From Acorus gramineus (lineage: Eukaryota; Streptophyta; Magnoliopsida; Acorales; Acoraceae), in assembly GCA_030737835.1 (NCBI GenBank), contig CM060852.1, positions 21,933,868 through 21,997,867 on the forward strand: 64,000 nt of DNA. Reading direction: 5' to 3'. The notes under the pieces were generated by a model. That model saw nothing but the letters and a program-made list of their open reading frames with translations. It searched no databases and was not told where the DNA came from. Every line of letters begins with the position of its first letter. The first letter of the stretch is position 1. Position numbers and translations under genes: made by a program. Shown piece after piece: positions 21,000-53,687 of this stretch.

Positions 21000-21309
21000 C
21001 ACTACAAGGAAATTCAGGCATTAGCTGCGAAATAATTCGTAGCAAAAGTTCGTTACAATTATCGTCGTAGAAGCCACTTATGGGATTCCCTTTTACTACG
21101 AAATATTAGTTTCGTAGTAAAAGGAACCTTTTGCTACGAAAGATATTTCGTAGTTAAAGGAACCGTTTGCTACGAAAATATTTCGTAGTTAAAGGGATAT
21201 TTTCGTAGCTAAATTTTCGCTACAAAATTAGTGTCATAGCCCATGGCTAGATTTTACTACGAAATTAATTTTCGCAACAGAAAGACACATTTTGCTACAA
21301 AACTTTTTC

Positions 21310-31450: not shown

Positions 31451-31881
31451 AAAATCTCTAAAGTCTTTTCTACGAAATTCAAATTCGCAGCTCAAAGTCA
31501 AGTATTGCGCAGCTAAACGTCAACGTTTTTGCTACGAAAATTAACTTCGCAGCTAAAAGTCATTTCTTTCGCTATGAATATCTTTGGCATAGCTAAAAGG
31601 CACATCTATTGTTACGAAATATCATTTCGCAGCTAAAAGATATATCTATTGCTACGAAATAAAATTATGTAGGTAAAACGTAAGACCTTTTGAGAAAAGA
31701 TATACCTTTTGCAACAAAATTAATTTTCGTAGACAAAGGTAAAACTATTTGCTACGAATTTATTTTTAGCAAGTAAGAGGCTCATTTAGTTACGAAAGTT
31801 AATTTCGTAGCTAAACGTTCGTAGCTAATAATGAAATTTATTGTAGTGGTCGAAGGAGTAGTCGACCCGTTGGAGATGCTC

Positions 31882-32278: not shown

Positions 32279-35115
32279 TTTTTTTTTTTTTTTTTATTGG
32301 TAATCGATTTTTGTATTTCTATGAAGAGAGAAACAAAGTTTACAAAGAGTATGAAAAAGCACAAAAATAAGGATAACAAAAGAAATTTTAGTGATAACGA
32401 AAGAGGGAAAGTCGAAGTCAGGTCAACCTGCATCCCTTCACTATCATTAAACATCTCCTGAAGTCCTTAACTGAATCAAATCAAAACAAGAAGGTCTGCC
32501 ATTAGTGAACCCATGGGGATCGAAACAAGAAATCTGCCTTTAGTGGACTCAGGGGGAGAATAAGGGTGTCATCCTTTCTTGCGAATATAGGGAACACCAG
32601 ACTTGTCCTGCAAAACAGCTGCTCTAAGATCAGCCCAAATGTTGGAAGGATAGAGGACTGTTTCTCCTCTGGCAGATTGGAATGAAGCAATCAGGTCGGT
32701 AGGAGAATTCCCTTCACGCGGGATGTGTGATGCCTTCCATTCCTTTAAGCTAAGAAGACCATGTTGAATAGAACGAAGAGATCGGATTGCAGTCCAAGGA
32801 TGTGAACCCTTCCCTTTAACCCAAGCTATTGCGGAGGTGGAATCCGATTCGATCCACAAATTTTGGACCCCTGATTTGATGGCAAGCCATATTCCCACCT
32901 CGATCTCCTTGAGCTCTAAAAGATTAATAGATGGAAGATCATGTCTACCCGCTATACCACAAATAAATTCAGATTGGGCATTTCGAAGAAGTGCTCCATA
33001 GCCCCCCCTATCATCAGCCAATGACCCGTCAGAGTTTAGTGTTGTCCATCCACAAGGAGGAGGCAACCAAAGAACTTTTGTGTGGGATTGTTGGGGTTCC
33101 AAAACAGAGAAGCCAAAGAAGGAAGACATCTGTAGAACTTCTGGAGTTGTTTGAGACTTGAAAGTAATGGGGGAGAACCTGATCCGCATAGAAGCTTTGA
33201 TCCTTTGAAGTACTAGCTTCTTGTGGCAACTTAGATTCCTGGAAGCATGGGCATTTCGTTCAAGCCAGATATGCCATATAGTGGTGATGAGAGATATCTG
33301 TAGAATGGATTTCCAGATGGGGGAGGGTGCTGCCGTGTCCAACCAGCGAACTAGACTTGAGAACAGTCTAGGAAGAGGTGTGTGGATGTTCATAGCTTTG
33401 AGGAGGGAGCACAAAATAAATCTAGAATAAGAACATTTTAGAAAAAGATGGTCTACATCCTCATTACCGGCTTGACAAAGAAGACATGAGGACTCACGAA
33501 GAAGCCCTTTTCGCAGTAGGTGAGCTTTGGTAGGAAGTTTATCATGGAAAACTTGCCAGGCGCATACTGAATGTCGCGGAGTTTGATGGGGGAACCATAG
33601 CCATGGAGTCCATTTGAGCGGGGTCAAAAAGGAACAGATTGATTGCCATGCAGCGGATAGATTGAGTTTTCTATATTTGCATGGAGACCAGATAATCACA
33701 TCATCCGCCAAGCCCCCGATATCTAAAAGTTCAATTTCAGACCAGATGTATGTTATTTAGCGAGGAGGGCGAGCGGTCAGGTTTCTTCCATTTTCCTTTG
33801 TGAATTAAGCGATCCAAAGTAGCGGATTGAGGAGGACCCCAAATGTAGGATGAACGGCCTAAGAAATGCTTCAATCCTTTCCCATTGAGCCATGGGTCAG
33901 ACCATATATTAATTGTTTTGCCTCAAAGATGATATATCTAACTTTTGGTGCAATCCATTGTGTTGACTTCAATATTGAATTCCAGGAACTTGTGCTGTCC
34001 AAAGGAAAATGGACAGTCCAGATATTTCTGCCCTTCAAGTAACGAGTAAATATTCACTTGGACCATAAGGAGGAGTGATTGTTTAAGATGTCCCAGAATC
34101 GTACACCTGCTGCTCCCATATTCCAGTCCTTGATGGATTTAGTGCCAAGTCCTCCTTCCAGGCGAGGCTTGCAAACGGTAGACCAAGCTATATGGTGGAT
34201 CCTCCTTTTCAGTAGAATGACATTCCCAAAGAAAAGTCCTAAGAACCAATTCAATATCTCGTTGAACCCTTCAAGGATAATTGAATGAGGAAGACCAAAA
34301 CACATGAAAAGAAGAGAGCATAGTTTTAATGAGTTTGATACGGCCTGCACTTGAGAGGGAATGACCTAATTCCCATGAATGAATTCATTTGCGGATCTTG
34401 TCAATGAGAGGAAGGCAATGAGAGTACTTAAGAGTGCCATTCAATAAGGAGAGACCAAGATACCGCACAGGCAAGGAATGTTGGGAGATATTAAGCAAGT
34501 TACATAAGACCAGAGCGGCAGGACTACAAGAGGCGAATATTTGACTTTTAGATGTATTGAGGTGCAGTCCTGAAGAAGCAGCAAAGGAATTGAATAGATC
34601 AACCAGAGCATATGCTGAGCTTGTCTTAGTGTCAGAGAAGACAAGTAAGTCATTTCAAAAAGTGGCTAACATTGAGAGCACCTTTGATGTATGGACCCAC
34701 ACTTCCATCCGCTACTAGAGAGTTGAGTTGAGCAGAAAAAGACTCCATAACCAGTGTAAAGAGTAGGGGAGATAGCGGATCACCTTGGCAAATCCCACAA
34801 GAAGAGGAGAAGAAGCCATTAGGAGAACCATTGACTAGGACAGAGTATTTGGGAGAGGAGACACACTCCATGCATAGAGAAATCCAGTGCTCACTAAAGT
34901 TACACCTCCGAAGGACTTGTTCAAGATAAGACCAGTTCACACTATCAAATGCTTTTTTGAGATCGACCTTTATGCAAGCCTTTGATTTACCATGATTGAG
35001 GTACTTGATCAGTTCATGGGCAAGAAGAATACTGTGATCGATGCTTTGGCCCTTGATGAAAGCAGACTGATGTTGACTAACAGGCTTCGGAAGAAGGGGT
35101 TGTTGTCGAGACTCC
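32279..35115 (-). mobile_element. L1-type LINE, 5'-truncated, minus strand
   Basis: On the minus strand the sequence begins inside the reverse transcriptase ('QPLLPKPVSQHQSAFIKGQS', 'KACIKVDLKKAFDSVNWSYL', 'CGICQGDPLSPLLFTLVMES'). It continues through the thumb region and a zinc-binding zf-RVT segment ('HSVCAWQVFHDKLPTKAHLL', 'CLLCQAGNEDVDHLFLKCSY'), and ends with an RNase H domain ('LNSDGSLADDRGGYGALLRN', 'LWIESDSTSAIAWVKG') and a stop near 32569. A 3' untranslated region and a 17-base poly(A) (32295-32279) follow. The endonuclease and ORF1 are absent, as is usual for aborted LINE insertion. The RT is split across frames by several shifts (around 34650, 34440 and 34050), so it is inactive. 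A plant L1 lineage with RNase H. Confidence 0.88.
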
Positions 35116-35256
35116 AACTGATGTTCACTAAGAAGTTAACCGTGTGGTATGTTTGTGGAGGACCTTGTGCAAGTCCTTCAGGATGATTACAATGGAAAAA
35201 TATACAGTTAGCGTCTTGGAGATTGACCTGTGATTGCCTTGTTTTTGTTCTTCCTA
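35116..35256 (+). mobile_element. 3' tail of a second LINE, part before the MULE insertion
   Basis: This noncoding stretch, joined across the MULE with 41636-41768, ends in 'atgaaagatcatttacttgtt' and poly(A), the form of plant LINE 3' ends. It is therefore a short plus-strand LINE remnant lying head to head with the minus-strand LINE. Assignment rests only on the tail. Confidence 0.4.
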
Positions 35257-36135
35257 GGAAATTTTTTAAAATTAATCTTAATTTAATAATTATTTCTAAA
35301 AATGACCCTCTCCAATAATTATTTACAAAAATAACCGTCAACATTATTTGAACTAATTTTACAATGACACTTCAACATCACCCCGCCATTCGAATATTTG
35401 CAAAAACTATATAATCCGTCTCCTGTGTAAAATAGTCCCGTTGAAAATATGATAAAGTTGAATGACGACTGAACCTGGAGACGGCATATATATATACCGT
35501 CTCGGAGACGGTATATATATATACCGTCTTCAGGGCACGGCATATATAAGGCCCGTCCCCGCTGTCAAGCCCTAAAACCCCCATTTTTCACCCCTTTTGT
35601 CCCTCTTTCACCCACCCACCCACTGCCAACCTCGAAAAACCATAAAAAACAACTCTGAATCCAAAGGTAAACATCAAAACCCTAAATGTTCTTGAATTTT
35701 ATTATTTATTTATCAATTGTTTTGATTTTATTGATTAAATTTGGGTTTTTTTTTTTTATCAAAACCCTAAATGTTGAATGTTGAATTTATTTATTATTGG
35801 AATGTTGATTGTATGATGTTTTGTTAAGTGAAATGTGAATTTTTTTAGGGTTTTGGTTATTTTAAAATTTTTTATTTGTCAAAGTAAACTTTTAAATCTT
35901 AAAAAAATTTGAAAAATTTAATTGTCATATATAAATTTTTTTTTTAAAATTGTATGGCCTTAGAAAATAATTCAATGGCCCCTTAGTAAACATTTTAAAA
36001 AATCAAAGGCTATTTTTAGGAAATATGCTTTGTATGTGTTGCATGAATGTTATAGTGTTTAATGTGTGTGTTAGATGGATTTTATTATTATGAATTTAGA
36101 AATATATTTACTAAGTTGAATAATTTATGGTTTAG

Positions 36136-38878
36136 ATGGTAAAGAAATCCGATGTCCCGTTAATGTACTCTTTTAACGGGAGGATTGTTCAAGATACTTC
36201 ATTTTATGAAGGTGGTACCAGGAAAACTATCATCATACGTAAGAAGATCTCTTATGTCGATTTACTCCAAATGATGTACCATTTGACGAGGACCGATCCA
36301 AGTCTTTACAAATTGTCCATGAGTGCTGTGCAATACACTCTCGACGGAAAGAGTTTGGGTGCCCCTCTCGAAGATGATATGGGTGTGAAAGTGATGATAA
36401 TGTTGTACCCAAAGCACGCGCATGTCATTCAAATATGGTTAGAGAAAGAAGAGATCATACAAAGAGGTCGTGGCGCGATGAATTATGATGCAGAAGATTC
36501 ATATCCTTCCATTGTTCGTGAACCATATCAACCTTCATCGTCGTCGTTTGTTCCGTGCACCCAAGAGAATATGATTGATGCAACACCGACCAATGCCTAT
36601 GGGAGTGTGAATATACCACATTTGTAAGTATTGTGAATTTATAGGATGTTTTTGGTGGGTGTATTCATATGTGTAAGTATAATGTGTTTGCATTTATAGG
36701 TCCCCATTTCATGACATGGGTTGGGACGATATTCGTGAAGGAATTGAAGTGAACAATGAAGAAGAAGAAGATCAAGAAGAGGGAGAAGAAGAAGATCAAG
36801 ATTGGGGAGAAGAAGAAGAGGAAGTGGGAGAAGATACTGAAGAAGAAGAAGAAGAGGATCGTGAAGATGGCTGGGTTGAAGGACCTGATACTGAGGAGGA
36901 CCATGATGTGAGGAGAACTGCCATCAGTGAATATAGTGTTCCTCAAATGTTTCCTACACGTGAGCTTATGGAGCAGGCGGTGGCTGAAAATGTCCATCCA
37001 TGCATTTATGAAATCGGATCTTCTTCGTGTAATGAACTTGAGGTTGGTCAGCTTTTCGCGAATAAGAAGTCACTCATTAATGCTGTCCGAACCTGGAGCA
37101 TAAAGAAATGCGCACAATGTCATGTGGTGAAATCAAATGCAGAAAAATACGCCGTTAAGTGCATAAATGATGAATGTAATTGGAGATTATATGCGAGGAG
37201 GGTCGGTGGTTCAGAAATGTTCAAGATTTCCACTCTGAGAGTTCCTCATACATGCTTGGATCCTCTTCTCAGTTCAAATCACAGACAATTTAGTTCTGAT
37301 TATATCTCACAGCTGATTATGCCAACGATTCGTCATAATTTGAGAATCAGTGCTACTGAGATAATGGACAGGATACGTGCTGATCATCACTACACAATTT
37401 CATATTCAAAGGCAACCGTGCCAAATGGAAGGCTATGGAGAGGATATTTGGAAATTGGGAGGAATCATATGCTGAGTTGCCTCTATATGTTGATGCCTTG
37501 AGGAGGTCTAATCCAGGAACAAATGTGTTCTTCGAAGGCCCTGTCATACAAGAGAATAACATGGGCAGACCGATCCGACAGTTTGAACGTGTTTTTTGGG
37601 CATTCGGACCAGCCTTAGAGGCTTTCAAACATTGTCGTCCATTGGTTTGCATCGATGGAACACATCTGTATGGAAAATAAAGGAAATCTCCTGATAGCCA
37701 CTGCTTGCGATGCAGAAAATGGTTTGCTTCCGATAGCCTTTGCTATAGTTGAATCTGAGAACAGAAGCAGTTGGACCTTCTTCCTTTGGAACTTGTTCTT
37801 TTCTGTTGGTGGTATAAACAATTTGTGTGTCATATCTGATCGGCACTTGGGCATCATAGCAGGCATGAAGGATATTGAGGAATCAAGCAATGTAACATGG
37901 CACCATCGTTTCTGTATGAGACACATGATAGACAACTTCAAAAAAATGTAAAATCAAAGGAGTTGAGTGACCAGGTGTGGAGGGCTGCCACCTTGAAATG
38001 TCCAAATCAATTTGCTGATGAAATGCGAAAGATTCTTAGTGCCTCCTCACAAGCTCGCACATGGCTTGATCAAGTCCCTCCACAAACATGGGCCCTTTGT
38101 TATGACGATGGCCGTCGTCATGGCACGATGACCACCAATAGAGCAGAAAGCATGAACAGTGTCTTGAAAGGTGTAAGAGGATTGCCAGTCACTGCCATAT
38201 TACAACAGACATTCATACGAGTGTCAGAGTATTTTTATACTCGGCGTGAATCGGCCGAGAGCATGTCAGGTGAACATGTGCCATCTATGCAGCAACATTT
38301 GGAGAGAACTGCACATGATGCAAGGGCGATGTTAGTAAGAAGGCTTGATAGATCAGAATTCAATGTCCAAGACAAGAATGCGGTTATGTACATTGTTTTC
38401 CTATATTCTGACAATGCAGAATGTCAATGTCATGTTCCGAAGTTGTTTCACTATCCATGTGCACATGTCATAGCGGCCTGTGGGTATGCTCGTATTAGTC
38501 CTGGGAGATATGTGTCACATTGGCTTTCCTCAGAGTCATATAGACACACTTATGAACCCCGATTCCACTCCGTTGATGATAAAAGTCGTTGGCCGATTCC
38601 TACGGAAAACGATCCTATCTTCATCCCACCAAATGTTAGGAGACAAGCGGGGCGCCCTGTATCAACTCGCCGACGTATGCATATGGACTCCAGGGATCCA
38701 AGTCTGAGATATACATGTTCAATATGTCATGAGAAAGGCCATAGAAAAAATAAATGTCCACGTAGAAATACAAATGCTGGTAATTGATGTTAAATATGAT
38801 TGTGATATGATGATGAATGTTCAATTGTTTGAGTAGATATTAACTTGTGTTCAAATTACAGGTGATGAACATCCGTGA
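36136..38878 (+). pseudogene. MURA-type MULE transposase
   Basis: Exon 1 (36136-36623) encodes an N-terminal ubiquitin-like/PB1-like region. Intron 36624-36699 has GTAAGT...TATAG borders. Exon 2 begins with an acidic Glu-rich stretch, then the MuDR N-terminal zinc domain ('ELEVGQLFANKKSLINAVRT', 'CNWRLYARRV'). The MULE DDE core follows: Asp in 'VCIDGTHLYGK', Asp in 'CVISDRHLGI' and Glu in 'TTNRAESMNS'. Then come a SWIM zinc finger 'CQCHVPKLFHYPCAH' and a terminal CCHC knuckle 'CSICHEKGHRKNKC'. It excises and inserts the element. Three small indels shift the frame, near 37412 (after 'TISYSKA'), 37677 (after 'HLYGK') and 37945 (in an A-run), so this copy is inactive. An alternative last splice (donor 38781, acceptor 38861) would end it 'NAGDEHP'. 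Confidence 0.9.
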
Positions 38879-41089
38879 GTGGCATGGACCCGTCGTGGAT
38901 GATTTGCTGTATTTTCAGGGATCTCATAGGTCTCATCATGGATTCCAAGGCAAGGTATGACAAATGATGTGTTTTTCTCTAATGTTATTCTTCATATATG
39001 AATTTTTTTTTACTTGAATAAATAAATTCCTTAAACAGACCGACTCCTCCAAGTTTACGATCCACATGGTGGCATTGCGTCACTGGGTCATGGATCCACG
39101 CATCGAGCCATACGTGAGGGCATCAGGGTTGTATTATTTGACAGAGATGGGATATACCAGATCAGATCATCGACTTCTACAAGCACTGACTGAGAGATGG
39201 AGACCAGAAACCAACACATTTCATCTGCGACATGGCGAGATGACCATTACACTTCAGGACGTTGCTATTTTGACTGGACTACCCATTGATGGCAAGCCCG
39301 TGACTGGTATCACAGACCACGATGATTGGGCCAGCGTTTGTGAGGAGCTGTTAGGTGTTGGCCCCCCTGCAGATAAGATCAAGGGTGGAAGAATTTTTCT
39401 CTCGTGGCTTAAAGAAACCTTCAGCATCGTACCAGATGTTGAATTGGACGACGATATCCTCCAGCAGTATGCACGTGCATATATCTTATTTGTGCTTGGA
39501 TCAACCATCTTCGCCGATGGCACAGGAAATAAGATACATGCGTGCTACCTTTATTTATTCAGAGATTTTGAGGATGCTGGCCGATATTCATGGGGTGCAG
39601 CTGCTTTGGCCCACTTATATAGAGCATTGTACAGAGGTAGTGTGCTTGGAGAGAGGATGAGGATCTCATGGTTTTTATTCTTTGCTATAGGTAATATGCA
39701 AACCCCAATTTTCATCCATACATACTAAATTTGTTTTTTTTTCTGTGTTACAAGAGATTTTGTTCCAATGCAGCTATGGTCGTGGGAGAGATTACATGTG
39801 GGACGACCGTCATTGCATGATCCGGATTTTATTCTTGGAGATCGACCTTTGGGAGCAAGGTAATGTCAATATTTTCATCTTCTTTTGTCAATTCATAGAA
39901 GATCATATTTCATTAAATTCCTTATTTCAGGTGGAAGGTGACTCAGAGGTTTGATGAAAATTCGCGTGTTCTGATATACTATAGAGCACAACTGGACTAT
40001 CAGCTTCAGTCGCAGGTGACTATACAATTAGTCATATATTTCACAAATGATATATTCTATGTTAATTGTGATACTAATTATAAATTTGGTTTTTGGTAGG
40101 TTATATGGCAGCCTTATGCTGGGACATATGAGACACTACCACCTGCATGTATGGATCATATGGAGTTGTGGACGGCTAGGGTCTCACTCATTTGCTTTGA
40201 TATTGTGGAGATGCACATACCAGATCAAATCGCATGTCAATTTGGATGGCATCGGGATATACCATCTGATGTAGAGACCATCGACCGGGTAAACATATGA
40301 GGTAGATAGGATGTGAATTGGATAGTTTTTCACCAGACTTATATCGAGCGTTGGGACCAACGATTGGATCACATCCACCAATTCTCTCATACCCGGAGTT
40401 CGAGGAGATATATGGAGTGGTACTGGGAGAGAACAGTCAGACATATCACACCTCCACCACCCCCACAGTACCATCCAGGCTATGTCGCACCAAATTCGGT
40501 AAGAATTTTAAACGCGTGTTACATTTTTAGATAGTGATAAATGATTTTATAACTACTTATCATATTGAAACTTTTGTTAACAGGGGGAGTTACACAGAAC
40601 ATTACCGAGGTGCTTGCAAGGGGGTTGGTCTTATACCCCAACTGCGATGAGTGGGATCGTAGAATTCCTGTGGCACGTGACTATGCAGAGGCGATGATGG
40701 GAGACAGGGAACAACCTTCGAGTACCTCCAGTGCATCTATAGATGCTGATGATTCTAAGGATGTCGTAGATGATAGTTTCACTCACACCGAATTCACAAT
40801 TGATGAGTTCTTCAATGATGTACGACTCGATGCAGAGATCGATGAGCAACCACAACAACCAGCCCCAGCTCCTGATCGAGCTCCACAGATGACACTCCAG
40901 ACATATACTCGTGGACCACGCAGGGTTTGGTGTACTTCTACTACTGCCAGTCGGGGATCGGGCAAACAATTTACCACTCCACCACAATCAGGTGTGCCGC
41001 CATCCACAGCAACTGACGTACCCTCTTCATCAGCACCTCCTACTCCGAGAAAAGCTAAAAAGAAAGGACTTATGAAAATATTTGGATGA
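38865..41089 (+). pseudogene. Plant mobile domain (PMD) protein gene carried by the MULE
   Basis: Predicted exons: 38865-38954, 39039-39690, 39757-39859, 39931-40015, 40100-40498 and 40584-41089, all with GT-AG borders. The protein shows the PMD (MAIN/MAIL-like) pattern: 'DPRIEPYVRASGLYYLTEMG', 'ALTERWRPETNTFHLRHGEM', 'TITLQDVAILTGLPIDGKPV', 'LWSWERLHVGRPS', 'WQPYAGTYETLPP' and 'HQTYIERWDQR'. A Pro/Ser-rich tail ends in basic 'PRKAKKKGLMKIFG'. Host PMD proteins act in the nucleus in silencing and meristem upkeep; many PMD genes are transposon-borne. Exon 5 has two in-frame stops close together (TGA about 40298, TAG about 40307) at sites explained by C-to-T change, so the full protein is probably not made. 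Its role in the element is unknown. Confidence 0.85.
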
Positions 41090-41319
41090 TTGTATTTATG
41101 GGATGTAAGACATGTTTATTATATTTATGCATTTTCATTTGTGTTTATTGTATTTATGTATTTTCGTTGGTGTTTAGAAACAGGAGTCAAGTGATTATAA
41201 TGGATTTATGCAAATATCAATGCATTTTTATTATATTTATGCATGTTCAAGCAGAAATTTTTATACAGGTGAGATAACCAACAATCTATACAACCAAAAC
41301 AAAAAAATTAAGATGGAAA

Positions 41320-41490
41320 ACGGATTATATATAATCCGTCTCCAGAAGAATAACCCGTCTCCAGTGTAAATTCCCAATAAGGGGGTGATTTACACTGGAG
41401 ATGGATTATATATAATCCGTCTCCATTGTAATTGGGGCACATATGGGTTGCAACACTGGAGACGGATTATATATAATCCGTCTCTAGTGT
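41320..41490. repeat. Subterminal palindromic repeats of the MULE
   Basis: Three copies of a palindrome with core 'ggattatatataatcc', each beside 'gtctcca' and 'acactgga' pieces. Similar 'cggtatatatatataccg' palindromes occur at the left end (35485-35550). They are likely transposase-binding or hairpin sequences. Confidence 0.75.
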
Positions 41491-41635
41491 AAAATATCAG
41501 CGGGTCTAGTTTTTGTAAATATTCGGGTGGCGGGGCTATTTCTGCAAATATTCAATTTTCGGGGGCTAAAAGTGCTAATTACCCTAAAAATAATTACTAC
41601 GTTAAGGTTAATTGCAAAAATTTCCCTTCTTCCTA

Positions 41636-41952: not shown

Positions 41953-44361
41953 CTACTGATATGGTGTTGCGATGACACGAAGATTATATTTCCTCTTCAC
42001 GGTGATCCCCGGCTCTTCATCCATGTTCAAATCCTCCACTAATCCCTCCCCCTCTGGCAGCTTCCAATCGAACCTGTACAACAGGTTCGCCAGCGTTAGT
42101 TCAACCTCCGATACCGCAAAAGAAATCCCTGGGCAGATCCTCCTCCCCGCGCTGAACGGTATGAACTGGAAATCGTTCCCCTTGAAATCCAATGACCCCT
42201 CCAAGAACCTCTCCGGCCTGAACTCCTCCGGCGCCTCCCAGTATTTGGGGTCCCTTCCGATCGCCCACGCATTGATGATGATCCTCGTCTTCGCCGGGAT
42301 GTGGTAGCCTTGCACGGTCGCGTCTTTGAGCGACTCGTGTGGGATCAAAATTGGTCCCGGTGGGTGAATCCGTAGCCCCTCCTTCACCACTGCCTTCAAA
42401 TAGGGGAGCTTCACCATGTCACTCTCTCCGACGCTTGGTTTCCCGGCTTCCACCACCGACCTTACCTCGGCCTGCACCACTTTCATCACTCTGGGGTTTT
42501 TTATGAGCTGCGACATCGTCCATTCGAGTAGCACGAATGATGTGTCCGTTCCCGCGACGAACATGTCCTGCACAAGAAAGTGAGCGTCCATTTTTTTTTT
42601 TTTTTGCTAATTGAGTATGGAATCCATAATTTTCTGTTGGGATCGGATTATGCCTAAGTTAGTTAGACAATTTGGTTGTCCAATGCGTTCATGGCCATCA
42701 AATATTATCATTTAAATATAATATATTAAAGATTATAATGTGTGATTATCACTTAAAATCAAAATTTAATGACCAAATATATGTATGAATCACAATAACT
42801 TTTGATATGGCTATCTATATTTAGGTGATAAAATGAATTTTTTTCATATACCTTTCAACCAACTCTATAATGTAATATTACCCCATTTGAAACTTAAAAC
42901 TAATAATATCTTTTGAATGGATAAATAAATGCTTTCATGTACAATTTAAACATTTTTTATTGATATTATTGAAAATAACAAATCATTAGAGATATTTTAC
43001 TAAAATGTGATTCTGTAGAGGTATATATACAAAACAAAAATTCATTAAGATTTGGTGGATAAGGATGATATTATCTAATTATATATATATACAAAAAAAA
43101 TCAAGAATTAAATTACTCCTAAAATTCTTTAAAAATTAATAACTTTTCATGTATAACTCCAATTGAGGTAATCAATATCTCGTGGGAAAGAGCTTTCCGA
43201 TATAGATTTTTATCGAAAATAACTATTTCACGGTGAAAATTTGAGATCAAAAGTTGAAACTCAAATTTTGACATGAAATTAACTATTTAACAAATATATT
43301 TCATGATTATCTCAATTTAAATCTAATAAAAAATAATAACAATAAAGAAATATGATGATGCAACGGTCACCACTATTCATCCAATATATATTAAAAAAAT
43401 TCTTAATGTGATGAAATTGAAAATAATTTTAATAAGTAATATAGATAGATAGATGGGTAAATAGGATGATTACCATGATGATTGCTTTGATTTGGTCCAT
43501 CGTAAGAGAATATTGGCTAACATCTTGGTCCCGGTAACGGGAGAGCAGAATATCAACCAGGTCCTCAACCTTGTTATTATTTTCACCACCACCACCACTG
43601 TTGTTCTTATGATCTTCAATCACCTGGTCCAGTAAAACATCCCAGTCTCGAACTAGCCTCCCGATCCTCGCATCCATGCCATTGATCTTGTTCAACGCTG
43701 CCCCGACGAACGGGAAGTACTCGGTCATCAGGATCCACGAAGACTCGAACAATTCCGACACTGAGATAATCATCTCATTGAGCTTGTCCCCTCCTGTGAT
43801 TCTCCTCCCCACAGCCACTCTGGAGATCATGTTGTTGGTGAGGGAGTTCAATAGCCTGCTCAGATTCACCGGCCCCAGGGATGCTCTCTCATAGACCTTC
43901 TCGATGAGTCGCGCCACTTCGTCTTCCCTAATGTCTCGAAAAGATTGTACTTTCTTAGAGTTCAAGAGGTGTATAACGGAAATCTTCTTCACCTGCTTCC
44001 AATACTCCCCGTAACGCGTGAACGTGATGTCACGGTTGCCATAGAAGAGCTTGTTTGTTAGGAATAACGACGGCCTGTTTGCGAAGATGGTGTCTTGCGT
44101 CTTCAAGATCTCTTGGGCTAGCTCCGAGGACGTGATGACGACAGTGGGAAGGAGGCCTAGTTGGAGGTGCATGATGTCTCCATGTTTTTGGGAGAGGGCA
44201 TGGAAGGCGCGATGAGCCATTGGAGAACTTATATGGTGAAGGTGACCTATAATGGGAAGCTTGGAAGGTGATGGTGGGAGGTTGGATTTTTTGGGGGAAA
44301 ATATTTCACGGAGGATGAGGAGGAGTGGAACTAAGAGAACAGCTAGCAATGCATGCAACAT
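41953..44361 (-). CDS. Cytochrome P450, CYP71 family type, intact
   Basis: Minus strand, two exons: 44361-43474 (296 codons) and 42567-41953 (204 codons plus stop), with a phase-0 intron of 906 bp (ATG|GTAATC ... TGCAG|GACATG). The 500-residue product has a hydrophobic endoplasmic-reticulum anchor (residues 1-20) and proline hinge 'LPPSPSKLPIIGHLHH'. It also has C-helix 'WKQVKK', I-helix oxygen-binding 'AGTDTS', K-helix 'KEGLR' (ExxR), 'FRPERF', and heme loop 'FSAGRRICPG' with the cysteine ligand. Intron position and length are typical of CYP71-clan enzymes, which hydroxylate terpenoids, phenolics or alkaloids using NADPH and P450 reductase. No key residue is missing. A partial copy lies at 8645-8973. 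The substrate cannot be told; methyltransferase genes downstream on the same strand hint at a shared pathway. Confidence 0.95.
42568..43473 (-). other. P450 intron
   Basis: 906-bp AT-rich intron with short tandem 'atag' units near the donor. No other feature is seen. Confidence 0.9.
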
Positions 44362-44412
44362 TTTTATTTCTCTTTATGTTTGATAAATAAAAATTCAAAG
44401 ATGAACACCTCC

Positions 44413-51931: not shown

Positions 51932-53687
51932 CTAGGGGTAGACCTCAATGAGGGAAAGCACGCCGGTTCCATGTGTTGCCTTATAGGTAGTGAAGCCAGC
52001 TTCAGTGAAGATCTTCTTCCACTCGTGCTCCTCTCTCTCCCTTCCACCGACGTCCACCATCATCAGCATGTCGAGGAAAAGCTGAGTCTCAGTTGCTTTG
52101 TGATCCTCAGTCTTTGAGTTCACTATCATGTCTAATATCATCACCTTCCCTCCCTTCTCTTTTGGAGGGATCGCCTTCTTGCATTGCTTCAATATCTTTA
52201 CACAGTCCTCGTCACCCCAATCGTGTAAAACCATCTGCAAATGCAATCCAAATGTGTTGGGTTGATGTCATTTTCATTTTAGTGTCTTGACGTCAAGGAA
52301 GAAGTCGACACTAAGGAGAACGGTCCGCTCTTACATACCTACGTATATTAATGTCAATTCTTTAATTTTTTATTATTATGAGTTGGGAATTATTTTTTAA
52401 GATTTTTTGAAGTATACATTTAAAAAAATCTCATTTTCTCAAAATACGTCTTATAAATTACTATTTGCAGCAATTCTCCTTAAAATATTAATTTGTGTAT
52501 GGATATTCTTTCAGTCGTGTATTTTGACAAAATTTAAACAATTAATCACTCAAAATAACGTCTATGTACAATTTATGCCTTTTTGAGAAGTATTGTTAGG
52601 AATAGAGTTTCATGTTGGTATTTGGACAGTCCAAGGCTTTTCAAAGCATATACAAATTTTTTTTATGATTGTGAGTTTTTTTATACAGATTTTGAGAGAG
52701 GGTGTATAATCCCCGCACAATCTGAGAATCTCTTACGTTTGTTTTTAATTGCCCAATTTTAACTTGGATAACATTGCAAGTACAGATAAATAATCTTGGG
52801 CTCACGCACCTTAAGAAGGACCGCGTCCGCCGGCGGGACGTGCTCAAACATGTTCCCTCCGACGAGCTCAACCACCACATCCTTTGGCGCATCGGCCACC
52901 ACGTGAGGGAGGTCAAGCACGGCGCATTTGATCGATGGAAAAGCCTTTGTGATTGTCTCTGCAAGACTCCCCGTCCCACCCCCGACATCGACGAGGGACT
53001 TCACCCCAACAAACGCGTCGTGGTGCAGCTCGACGAGCGCCTTCGACACGAGCCTCGAATCGCATGCCATCGCCTCATTGATCATGCGGTTCACACTCTC
53101 TGACTTCCTTGCCATCTCGAATATATCCACCCCGTGCGCCTTGGCGAACGCGGTCGGCTGGTCGCTGTGGAACCACTTGCTCAGGCTCTGCCAGGGGGAT
53201 TGCATGACCGGGTCCAGCTCGAAGAACAATAAGGGCAAGACCCCCGTGTCTTTGTCCTTTACAAGGAGACGCGAAACAGGGGTCAATGCATAATTTTCTT
53301 CTTCTCCTTCTTTGGATACATTTGCAAAGCAGCCTATGAAGACCAACATTTTTTTAGAGAAACTGTAGTTATATCTATTTTATCAAGAGAGGAACAAAAT
53401 AGATATGTCCGGAAATGGAGCATAAAGAAGAAAAGCAAAAAACCTTTGAAGATCAACATGCGCATCAGGCGGCGGAGGTAGTCGATCCGGTTGGGAGGGA
53501 TGGAGATCAAGGAGGCGAGGTGAGAGAGGGAGACGGGGCGGCCCTCATTGCGGTGTAGGATGTCGGGAATGCCGAGCTCCACCACGGATTTGAGGGACAT
53601 GGAGTTGACGAACTGGAATAAGTGGTTCCATATGAGGACTTGTGCTTGTAGTTCTTCCTCAACGTTGGCTGCTGTGGGGTGTGCCAT
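51932..53687 (-). CDS. SAM-dependent O-methyltransferase, COMT class, intact
   Basis: Minus strand, three exons: 53687-53444, 53333-52810 and 52234-51932, with introns of 110 and 575 bp and GT-AG borders. Total 1071 bases, 356 residues, the usual length. Exon 1 holds the dimerisation helices ('QVLIWNHLFQFVNSMSLKSV', 'LGIPDILHRN', 'IDYLRRLMRMLIFKG'). Exon 2 has 'YALTPVSRLLVKD', the SAM-binding motif 'LVDVGGGTGSLAETITKAFP' and 'VLDLPHVV'. Exon 3 starts 'MVLHDWGDEDC' with the catalytic His, and ends 'THGTGVLSLIEVYP'. Such enzymes move a methyl group from SAM to a phenolic hydroxyl in the cytosol; the nearest plant types are the resveratrol/isoflavonoid-like methyltransferases. The substrate is unknown. 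A near-identical tail of a second copy lies at 63895-64000. Confidence 0.95.

Follow-up and report, generated by a model that had tools for sequence, protein, structure and literature searches.

What does a plant mobile domain (PMD) gene do inside a transposable element? The question is raised by 64,000 nucleotides of Acorus gramineus DNA (assembly GCA_030737835.1, contig CM060852.1, positions 21,933,868 to 21,997,867 of the forward strand), here called the window, in which a Mutator-like element (MULE) carries a transposase gene followed by a PMD gene. The sequence-only reading of this locus placed the element at 35248-41635, with a perfect 9-bp duplication at its borders. Comparison of the window with related copies in the same genome shows a decayed, nested copy of a young two-gene MULE family, and we consider it probable that its PMD is a second gene kept by selection, most likely acting in trans against silencing.

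Gene layout in the window and in sibling copies

The sequence-only reading described a transposase with a SWIM finger and, on the same strand, a spliced PMD gene. Pfam bears out this arrangement, with matches on one strand in the order DBD_Tnp_Mut (E 3.2e-11), MULE (E 1.1e-10), SWIM (E 0.0013), and PMD (E 1.5e-48, a partial match in exon 2). The SWIM match lies just below Pfam's cut-off here and in a sibling (E 0.0031), and the zinc knuckle is weaker still. In a sibling transposase, the MULE and DBD matches reached E 2.9e-14 and E 1.2e-10. A sibling protein has a complete PMD domain (PF10536, 3-346 of 347, E 1.2e-92), and the predicted splicing gives a PMD protein of about 607 amino acids in a sibling. 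A PDB search with the PMD returned a best E of only 0.059. The gene features of the window copy, in window coordinates, are as follows.

35667-36135, plus strand, predicted 5' leader intron (AAAG/GTAAAC ... TTTAG/ATG, the slash being the splice point), from the sequence, with donor and acceptor compared in siblings
36136-36623, plus strand, predicted transposase exon 1
36700-38779, plus strand, transposase exon 2, predicted limits: acidic repeats, DBD, MULE DDE domain, weak SWIM, and zinc knuckle below cut-off
38862-38878, plus strand, predicted last transposase exon, which covers the PMD start codon in a different frame
38865-38954, plus strand, PMD exon 1, ATG at 38865, predicted limits
39039-39690, plus strand, PMD exon 2, with a 5-bp deletion relative to siblings
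39774-39859, plus strand, PMD exon 3, predicted limits
39931-40015, plus strand, PMD exon 4, predicted limits
40100-40498, plus strand, PMD exon 5, with in-frame stops in the window copy
40584-41089, plus strand, PMD exon 6, a tail without a Pfam match

Measured against the sibling frames, the window transposase is spread over several frames and has three frame-shifting deletions in its core (exon 2), while the PMD has the 5-bp deletion and three in-frame stops. The window copy is a decayed, nested, non-autonomous element in which both genes are broken. Compared with 15 siblings for the transposase and 16 for the PMD, its private substitutions are clustered (36136-36435 and 40130-40279) and the interval from about 36886 to 38779 has none, a pattern suggestive of a mosaic of two lineages.

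Siblings were found by searching the assembly (398.6 Mb, 137 contigs) with PMD exon 2 as a DNA query. This gave 199 first-look candidates. Of these, 40 were scored, namely the window copy (100%) and 39 more, which matched the full query at 97-98%. We read 20 of the 39, each as a 7.3-kb stretch. Between about 35408 and 41596, where the main aligned pieces lie, identity to the window was mostly 94-98%, and the family is multi-copy and young. Since the siblings were picked by their PMD match, the sample is blind to any siblings that lack the PMD.

The state of the two genes varies from copy to copy. Lesions were counted in 16 alignable siblings for the transposase (L036, L039, L043, and L049 dropped; acidic stretch and exon 1 unscored) and in 17 for the whole PMD (L031, L032, and L045, which have no 3' anchor, dropped). 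The transposase core, 629 codons long, is unbroken in 5 of 16. The PMD is free of lesions up to codon 414, where the Pfam domain ends, in 4 of 17 and over its entire length in 2, one of which has a one-base difference in a run at the last splice acceptor that makes the frame of its tail uncertain. Some copies keep one gene open with the other broken. Two of the 20 PMD-chosen siblings (L039 and L049) keep the PMD, with the catalytic part of the transposase absent from the stretch read. The transposase region upstream of the PMD is interrupted in L043 and replaced in L049, and the inserted sequence has long open frames.

Assembly error was rejected as the main source of this frame damage. Counting deletions of one or two bases (20 in the PMD and 14 in the transposase core, L034 left out), 27 of 34 fall in runs of three or fewer equal bases. 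Four PMD deletions are shared between copies, three in runs of at least four equal bases and one, in L038 and L046, outside such runs. Those three, and individual cases among the other deletions, may still be errors or recurrent changes.

Selection on the PMD and its linkage to the transposase

The sequence-only reading had named neutral evolution of the PMD in all siblings as one of two observations that would overturn it. Between siblings, mean silent divergence (dS) was 0.0265 and mean replacement divergence (dN) 0.0099 over 136 PMD pairs, compared with 0.0174 and 0.0067 over 105 pairs of transposase cores (L034 left out). We divided single-base codon changes in the PMD into those seen in one copy and those common to at least two, leaving out the window's own 22 private variants, of which 3 are silent and 19 are not. 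Singletons were 30 silent to 69 not, near the neutral expectation of 26% silent (p 0.36). Shared variants were 25 silent to 18 not, far from that expectation (p 1e-5) and from the singletons (Fisher 0.0026), in a test that counts sites rather than events and could be blurred by gene conversion among copies. The contrast held with the window dropped (22:17 versus 33:68, Fisher 0.012), at non-CpG sites (0.007), and in the PMD domain alone (11:6 shared versus 16:44 singletons, p 0.008). The C-terminal tail showed no such contrast (p 1.0).

More distant relatives were sought with the PF10536 profile, which gave 163 matches in the genome; 117 of 1,380 candidates were scored and 15 places were read. 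Five of these (L060, L061, and L064-L066) belong to the family of the window and its siblings, here family A. The others fall into subfamilies B (L062, L063, and L070), C (L068), D (L057), and E (L069), plus distant PMDs that are about 35-41% alike (L058, L059, and L067) or about 32% alike (L056). Between A and three B copies, dN/dS of the PMD was 0.14, 0.19, and 0.24 (the third copy has 5 stops). It was 0.15 between A and C (a copy with 4 stops) and 0.12 between A and D (2 stops, dS saturated). Short N-terminal pieces gave 0.09 for B and 0.06 for C. L059 gave 0.30 with saturated dS, the five further family A copies gave 0.26-0.64 relative to L033, and dS was not estimable for the PMDs of E, L056, L058, and L067. 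For the transposase, dN/dS was 0.17 between A and C and 0.26 between A and B. By these estimates, purifying selection has acted on the PMD in the lineages that transposed and has held it about as firmly as it held the transposase. The PMD is thus not neutral, with dN/dS of 0.12-0.24 between subfamilies and a silent excess among shared domain variants, and this one of the two challenges set by the sequence-only reading falls away.

The two genes are also found side by side beyond family A. We read one upstream stretch each for B, C, D, and E and two for the distant group. In all four subfamilies, transposase sequence of the same kind lies directly upstream of the PMD on the same strand. Its identity to A is 92% in B (213 codons, a truncated C-terminal part), 74% in C, 59% in D (88 codons only), and 40% in E, and PMD identity falls together with it, at 90%, 71%, 64%, and 49%. 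The pairing of transposase and PMD spans five subfamilies that differ widely in age.

These results bear on whether the PMD is a mere passenger, captured from the host like the genes of Pack-MULEs and without function for the element. In favor of a passenger, 13 of 17 siblings have a PMD lesion at or before the domain end, with some lesions recurring in several copies. Against it stand the dN/dS values for copies of three subfamilies, the silent excess that shared variants show in the domain and lack in the tail, and the presence of the PMD beside transposases down to 40% identity. We consider a passenger very unlikely. Pack-MULEs are non-autonomous and carry gene fragments but no transposase; here the window element has transposase sequence, as do the five subfamilies next to their PMD.

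Two side observations concern these related loci. At a B locus, a MYB-like reading frame (L071:221-806, minus strand), presumably of R2R3-MYB type, lies beside the truncated transposase. A Pack-MULE subfamily carrying a MYB gene was rejected as an explanation, as the matching stretch at L077, a place with the same PMD profile score, is transposase. In the second PMD group (L058, L059, L067, and similar places), some open frames span 484-677 amino acids, and several places have near-equal scores.

Ends of the element and the 9-bp duplication

The sequence-only reading took the perfect duplication as a sign of a relatively recent insertion of the two-gene element. The duplication itself is real: TTCTTCCTA stands unaltered at 35248-35256 and 41627-41635, directly outside inverted ends. 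It is not the duplication of the PMD-bearing element, whose siblings end otherwise. The following features make up the nest.

35248-35256, left copy of the 9-bp duplication TTCTTCCTA of the outer element
35257-35382, plus strand, end A of an outer, short, non-autonomous MULE (GGAAATTTTTTAAAATTAAT... to CATCACC), from genome matches and five paired examples
35381-41583, plus strand, nested PMD-MULE with intact right end (...GCTAATTACCC) and the outermost 48 bp or so on the left lost, from 20 sibling stretches
35474-35548, left subterminal palindromic repeats, ACGGCATATATATATACCGTC type
41311-41492, right subterminal palindromic repeats, ACGGATTATATATAATCCGTC type
41453-41583, minus strand, right terminal inverted repeat of the PMD-MULE, with an inverted match at the opposite end of siblings
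41584-41626, minus strand, end B of the outer MULE, a 43-bp remnant (reverse complement GGGAAATTTTTGCAATTAACC...) that is 81% complementary to 35257-35298
41627-41635, right copy of the 9-bp duplication of the outer element

When the 21-base end pattern GGGAAATTT was searched for with up to 5 errors allowed, none of the 20 sibling stretches had it at its ends. Siblings end in GGGTAATTAGCACTTTTAGCC. The window has the same end at about 41583, which is 43 bp short of the right end claimed before. The ends proper to the PMD-MULE are GGGTAATTAGC. This end pattern was present on both sides in 12 of the 20 siblings (L039 by a poor match with 6 errors). With one base of slack per end, six of the 12 (L034, L035, L041, L042, L048, and L050) have a perfect 9-bp duplication, L038 has one with one mismatch, and five have none. 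The six perfect duplications are A+T-rich. The family qualifies as a MULE through its MuDR-type DNA-binding domain and MULE DDE domain and, in siblings, through terminal inverted repeats and a 9-bp duplication of its own. The window copy has lost its left end, as well as one copy of this target duplication.

The outermost sequence belongs elsewhere. The stretch 35248-35407 has 41 listed genome matches, its own position counted, and several of these form inverted pairs. We read five such pairs (L051-L055), which bound elements of 0.8-1.6 kb. One end of each resembles the left side of the window up to ...CATCACC, and the other end resembles the right side. Their 9-bp duplications are perfect in two, have one mismatch in one and two mismatches in another, and are absent from the fifth. 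Because the two unlike ends in the window match this outer family, the PMD element appears to have inserted into the end of a short MULE. On this comparison, the GGGAAATTT ends and the TTCTTCCTA duplication belong to a separate, short, non-autonomous MULE family, and the inner left end and the middle of the outer element would have been lost after the PMD-MULE arrived, leaving TTCTTCCTA as the duplication of the outer element.

One could instead regard GGGAAATTT as the true end of a subfamily with swapped ends, so that the duplication would date the insertion of the PMD element. The outer ends do form inverted repeats with a perfect duplication, but the left 126 bp belongs to the 0.8-1.6 kb family, whose two ends differ as those of the window do, the PMD-MULE end ...GCTAATTACCC is intact inside the right outer end, and the pattern is missing from all 20 sibling stretches. 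We rejected GGGAAATTT as the PMD-MULE's own end on these grounds and give swapped ends hardly any credence. Somewhat less improbable, though still unlikely, is that the PMD-MULE first landed in the outer element and the two then moved as a composite, in which case the duplication dates the composite. This would suit a duplication that is perfect although the inner copy has decayed; it is simpler for the outer element to have come first and been hit later, and the evidence comes from a single locus. With the nested order that we prefer, the duplication belongs to the outer element, and neither gene of the window copy is intact; the duplication therefore gives no hint that a working element inserted recently. 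A perfect duplication adjoining an element need not be that element's own.

Each end of the PMD-MULE holds several near-perfect palindromes (35474-35548 and 41311-41492) built on CCGTCTCC and TATATA, which may serve as transposase sites or give rise to hairpin RNA. Around the nest, a cytochrome P450 gene in two open pieces (41953-44370, minus strand) ends about 320 bp away, an O-methyltransferase piece lies at 52759-53376, and an element resembling a long interspersed nuclear element (RVT_1, zf-RVT, and RVT_3; 32569-35132, minus strand) lies just to the left. Tandem arrays of a unit with TTGCTACGAAA are found at 21089-21195 and 31529-31678; we take these to be, perhaps, subterminal repeats of another DNA transposon.

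Expression and possible role of the PMD

How might one element express both genes? The transposase ATG at 36136 stands directly behind TTTAG, and a possible leader donor, AAAG/GTAAAC, is found at 35666/35667. The GT of this donor is kept in 15 of 17 sibling stretches that have the leader (exceptions L031 and L046; for L049, the leader lies in a neighboring copy). AG/ATG is kept in 15 of 17 siblings with a transposase start (exceptions L037 and L048), and ACAG/GTGATG at the PMD is kept in 20 of 20. In A, B, D, and E, a potential acceptor AG lies 0-3 bases before the PMD ATG. A single promoter at the left end, with the leader spliced either to the acceptor before the transposase ATG or to that before the PMD ATG, would explain why AG is placed before both start codons. 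An alternative for A and B would be a two-frame message, as the transposase frame is predicted to continue beyond the PMD ATG in a frame different from that of the PMD. A transposase-PMD fusion was not found, since the frames differ at the predicted junction in A and B and a stop precedes it in C and D; in E, splicing could conceivably produce one.

We propose that the PMD protein would help the element in trans as its second gene, most likely by interfering with or imitating host control of silencing by PMD proteins (MAIN/MAIL-PP7L). This is the weakest step of the proposal. MAIN and MAIL1, together with PP7L, take part in gene expression and silencing (PMC7156037), partly through MORC1 (PMC9899485). 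A narrower and rather doubtful version is that a long-kept second gene with two-acceptor splicing would encode a dominant, trans-acting decoy of MAIN/MAIL-PP7L, with which a few copies would keep many expressed. The decoy is a guess.

A role in transposition itself, whether in integration, excision, or transposase regulation, is possible but seems to us the lesser prospect. Selection about equal to that on the transposase, together with shared linkage, fits any second gene, and mudrB of maize MuDR offers a precedent, being apparently required for integration (Dupeyron et al. 2019, PMC6446971). Nothing specific speaks against such a role for the PMD; host PMD proteins, in the sources at hand, are tied to silencing and gene expression rather than transposition.

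Several observations weigh against the explanation that we prefer. Frame lesions of the transposase or PMD outside long runs are common to L033, L037, and L042; to the window, L037, and L048; to L031 and L047; and to L038 and L046. The transposase lesions that recur in this way imply that copies with a broken transposase spread, moved by others, and broken copies are probably mobilized in trans. The shared PMD lesion, if inherited, would mean that an element does not need its own PMD in cis. The transposase core showed no shared-versus-singleton contrast (p 0.41-0.61), its singletons being already rich in silent changes. The single C copy read has ACG in place of the PMD ATG, and an AG within 3 bases of an ATG is not rare by chance, the two-way splicing being read from sequence alone. 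No transposase of this kind lies within 2.4-2.5 kb upstream at the two places of the distant group that were read (L075 for L058 and L076 for L067). Finally, dS between B and A is 0.37-0.38 for the PMD versus 0.17 for the transposase, and at another B-like place the N-terminal transposase shares 97% identity with A. The last two points make exchange of pieces between subfamilies likely and the linkage less than strict.

Both the existence of PMD-bearing MULEs and the anti-silencing idea have been published before. PMDs occur in many plant MULE clades (Dupeyron et al. 2019, PMC6446971). MULE-borne PMDs were described in grasses and Amborella with anti-silencing use suggested (Ikeda et al. 2017, PMC5418596), and the idea was repeated in a 2021 review (PMC8616336). 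The clades of Dupeyron et al. (VANDAL, MuDR-9_OS, MULE-Monocots, MDR, MUDRAVI2, and MUDR) share with our family a MULE transposase, 9-bp duplications, and a PMD, their transposase having SWIM/CCHC where ours has a SWIM match just below Pfam's cut-off; the PMD is noted as antisense in several, whereas here it lies on the transposase strand at every locus read in five subfamilies. The MULE-PMD of Ikeda et al., likewise inside a MULE and likewise suggested to be anti-silencing, is described as a fusion with transposase, whereas here the PMD has a separate frame, its ATG overlapping the predicted transposase end in A and B. VANDAL21/Hiun is likewise a MULE that carries an additional gene regarded as anti-silencing, VANC; within its own family, VANC is reported to promote loss of DNA methylation, and the likeness to the PMD-MULE is one of description only. 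Pack-MULEs too carry host-related genes, but in this family siblings have the complete gene, selection acts on it, and a transposase lies next to it. MAIN and MAIL1 with PP7L have the PMD domain in common with the element but are host genes.

To this we add linked inheritance and selection within one genome, the gene layout, candidate acceptors, and corrected ends and duplication. In the literature on PMD with MULE, MuDR, or Mutator, as far as it was available, we met no earlier claim that an element-borne PMD is under selection, which is not proof of absence. The function of element-borne PMD proteins has been printed speculation since 2017. With many near-identical copies, and PMD-broken and PMD-open siblings in one genome, this family is a usable test case: siblings with one broken gene, together with a PMD under selection, make the anti-silencing idea testable.

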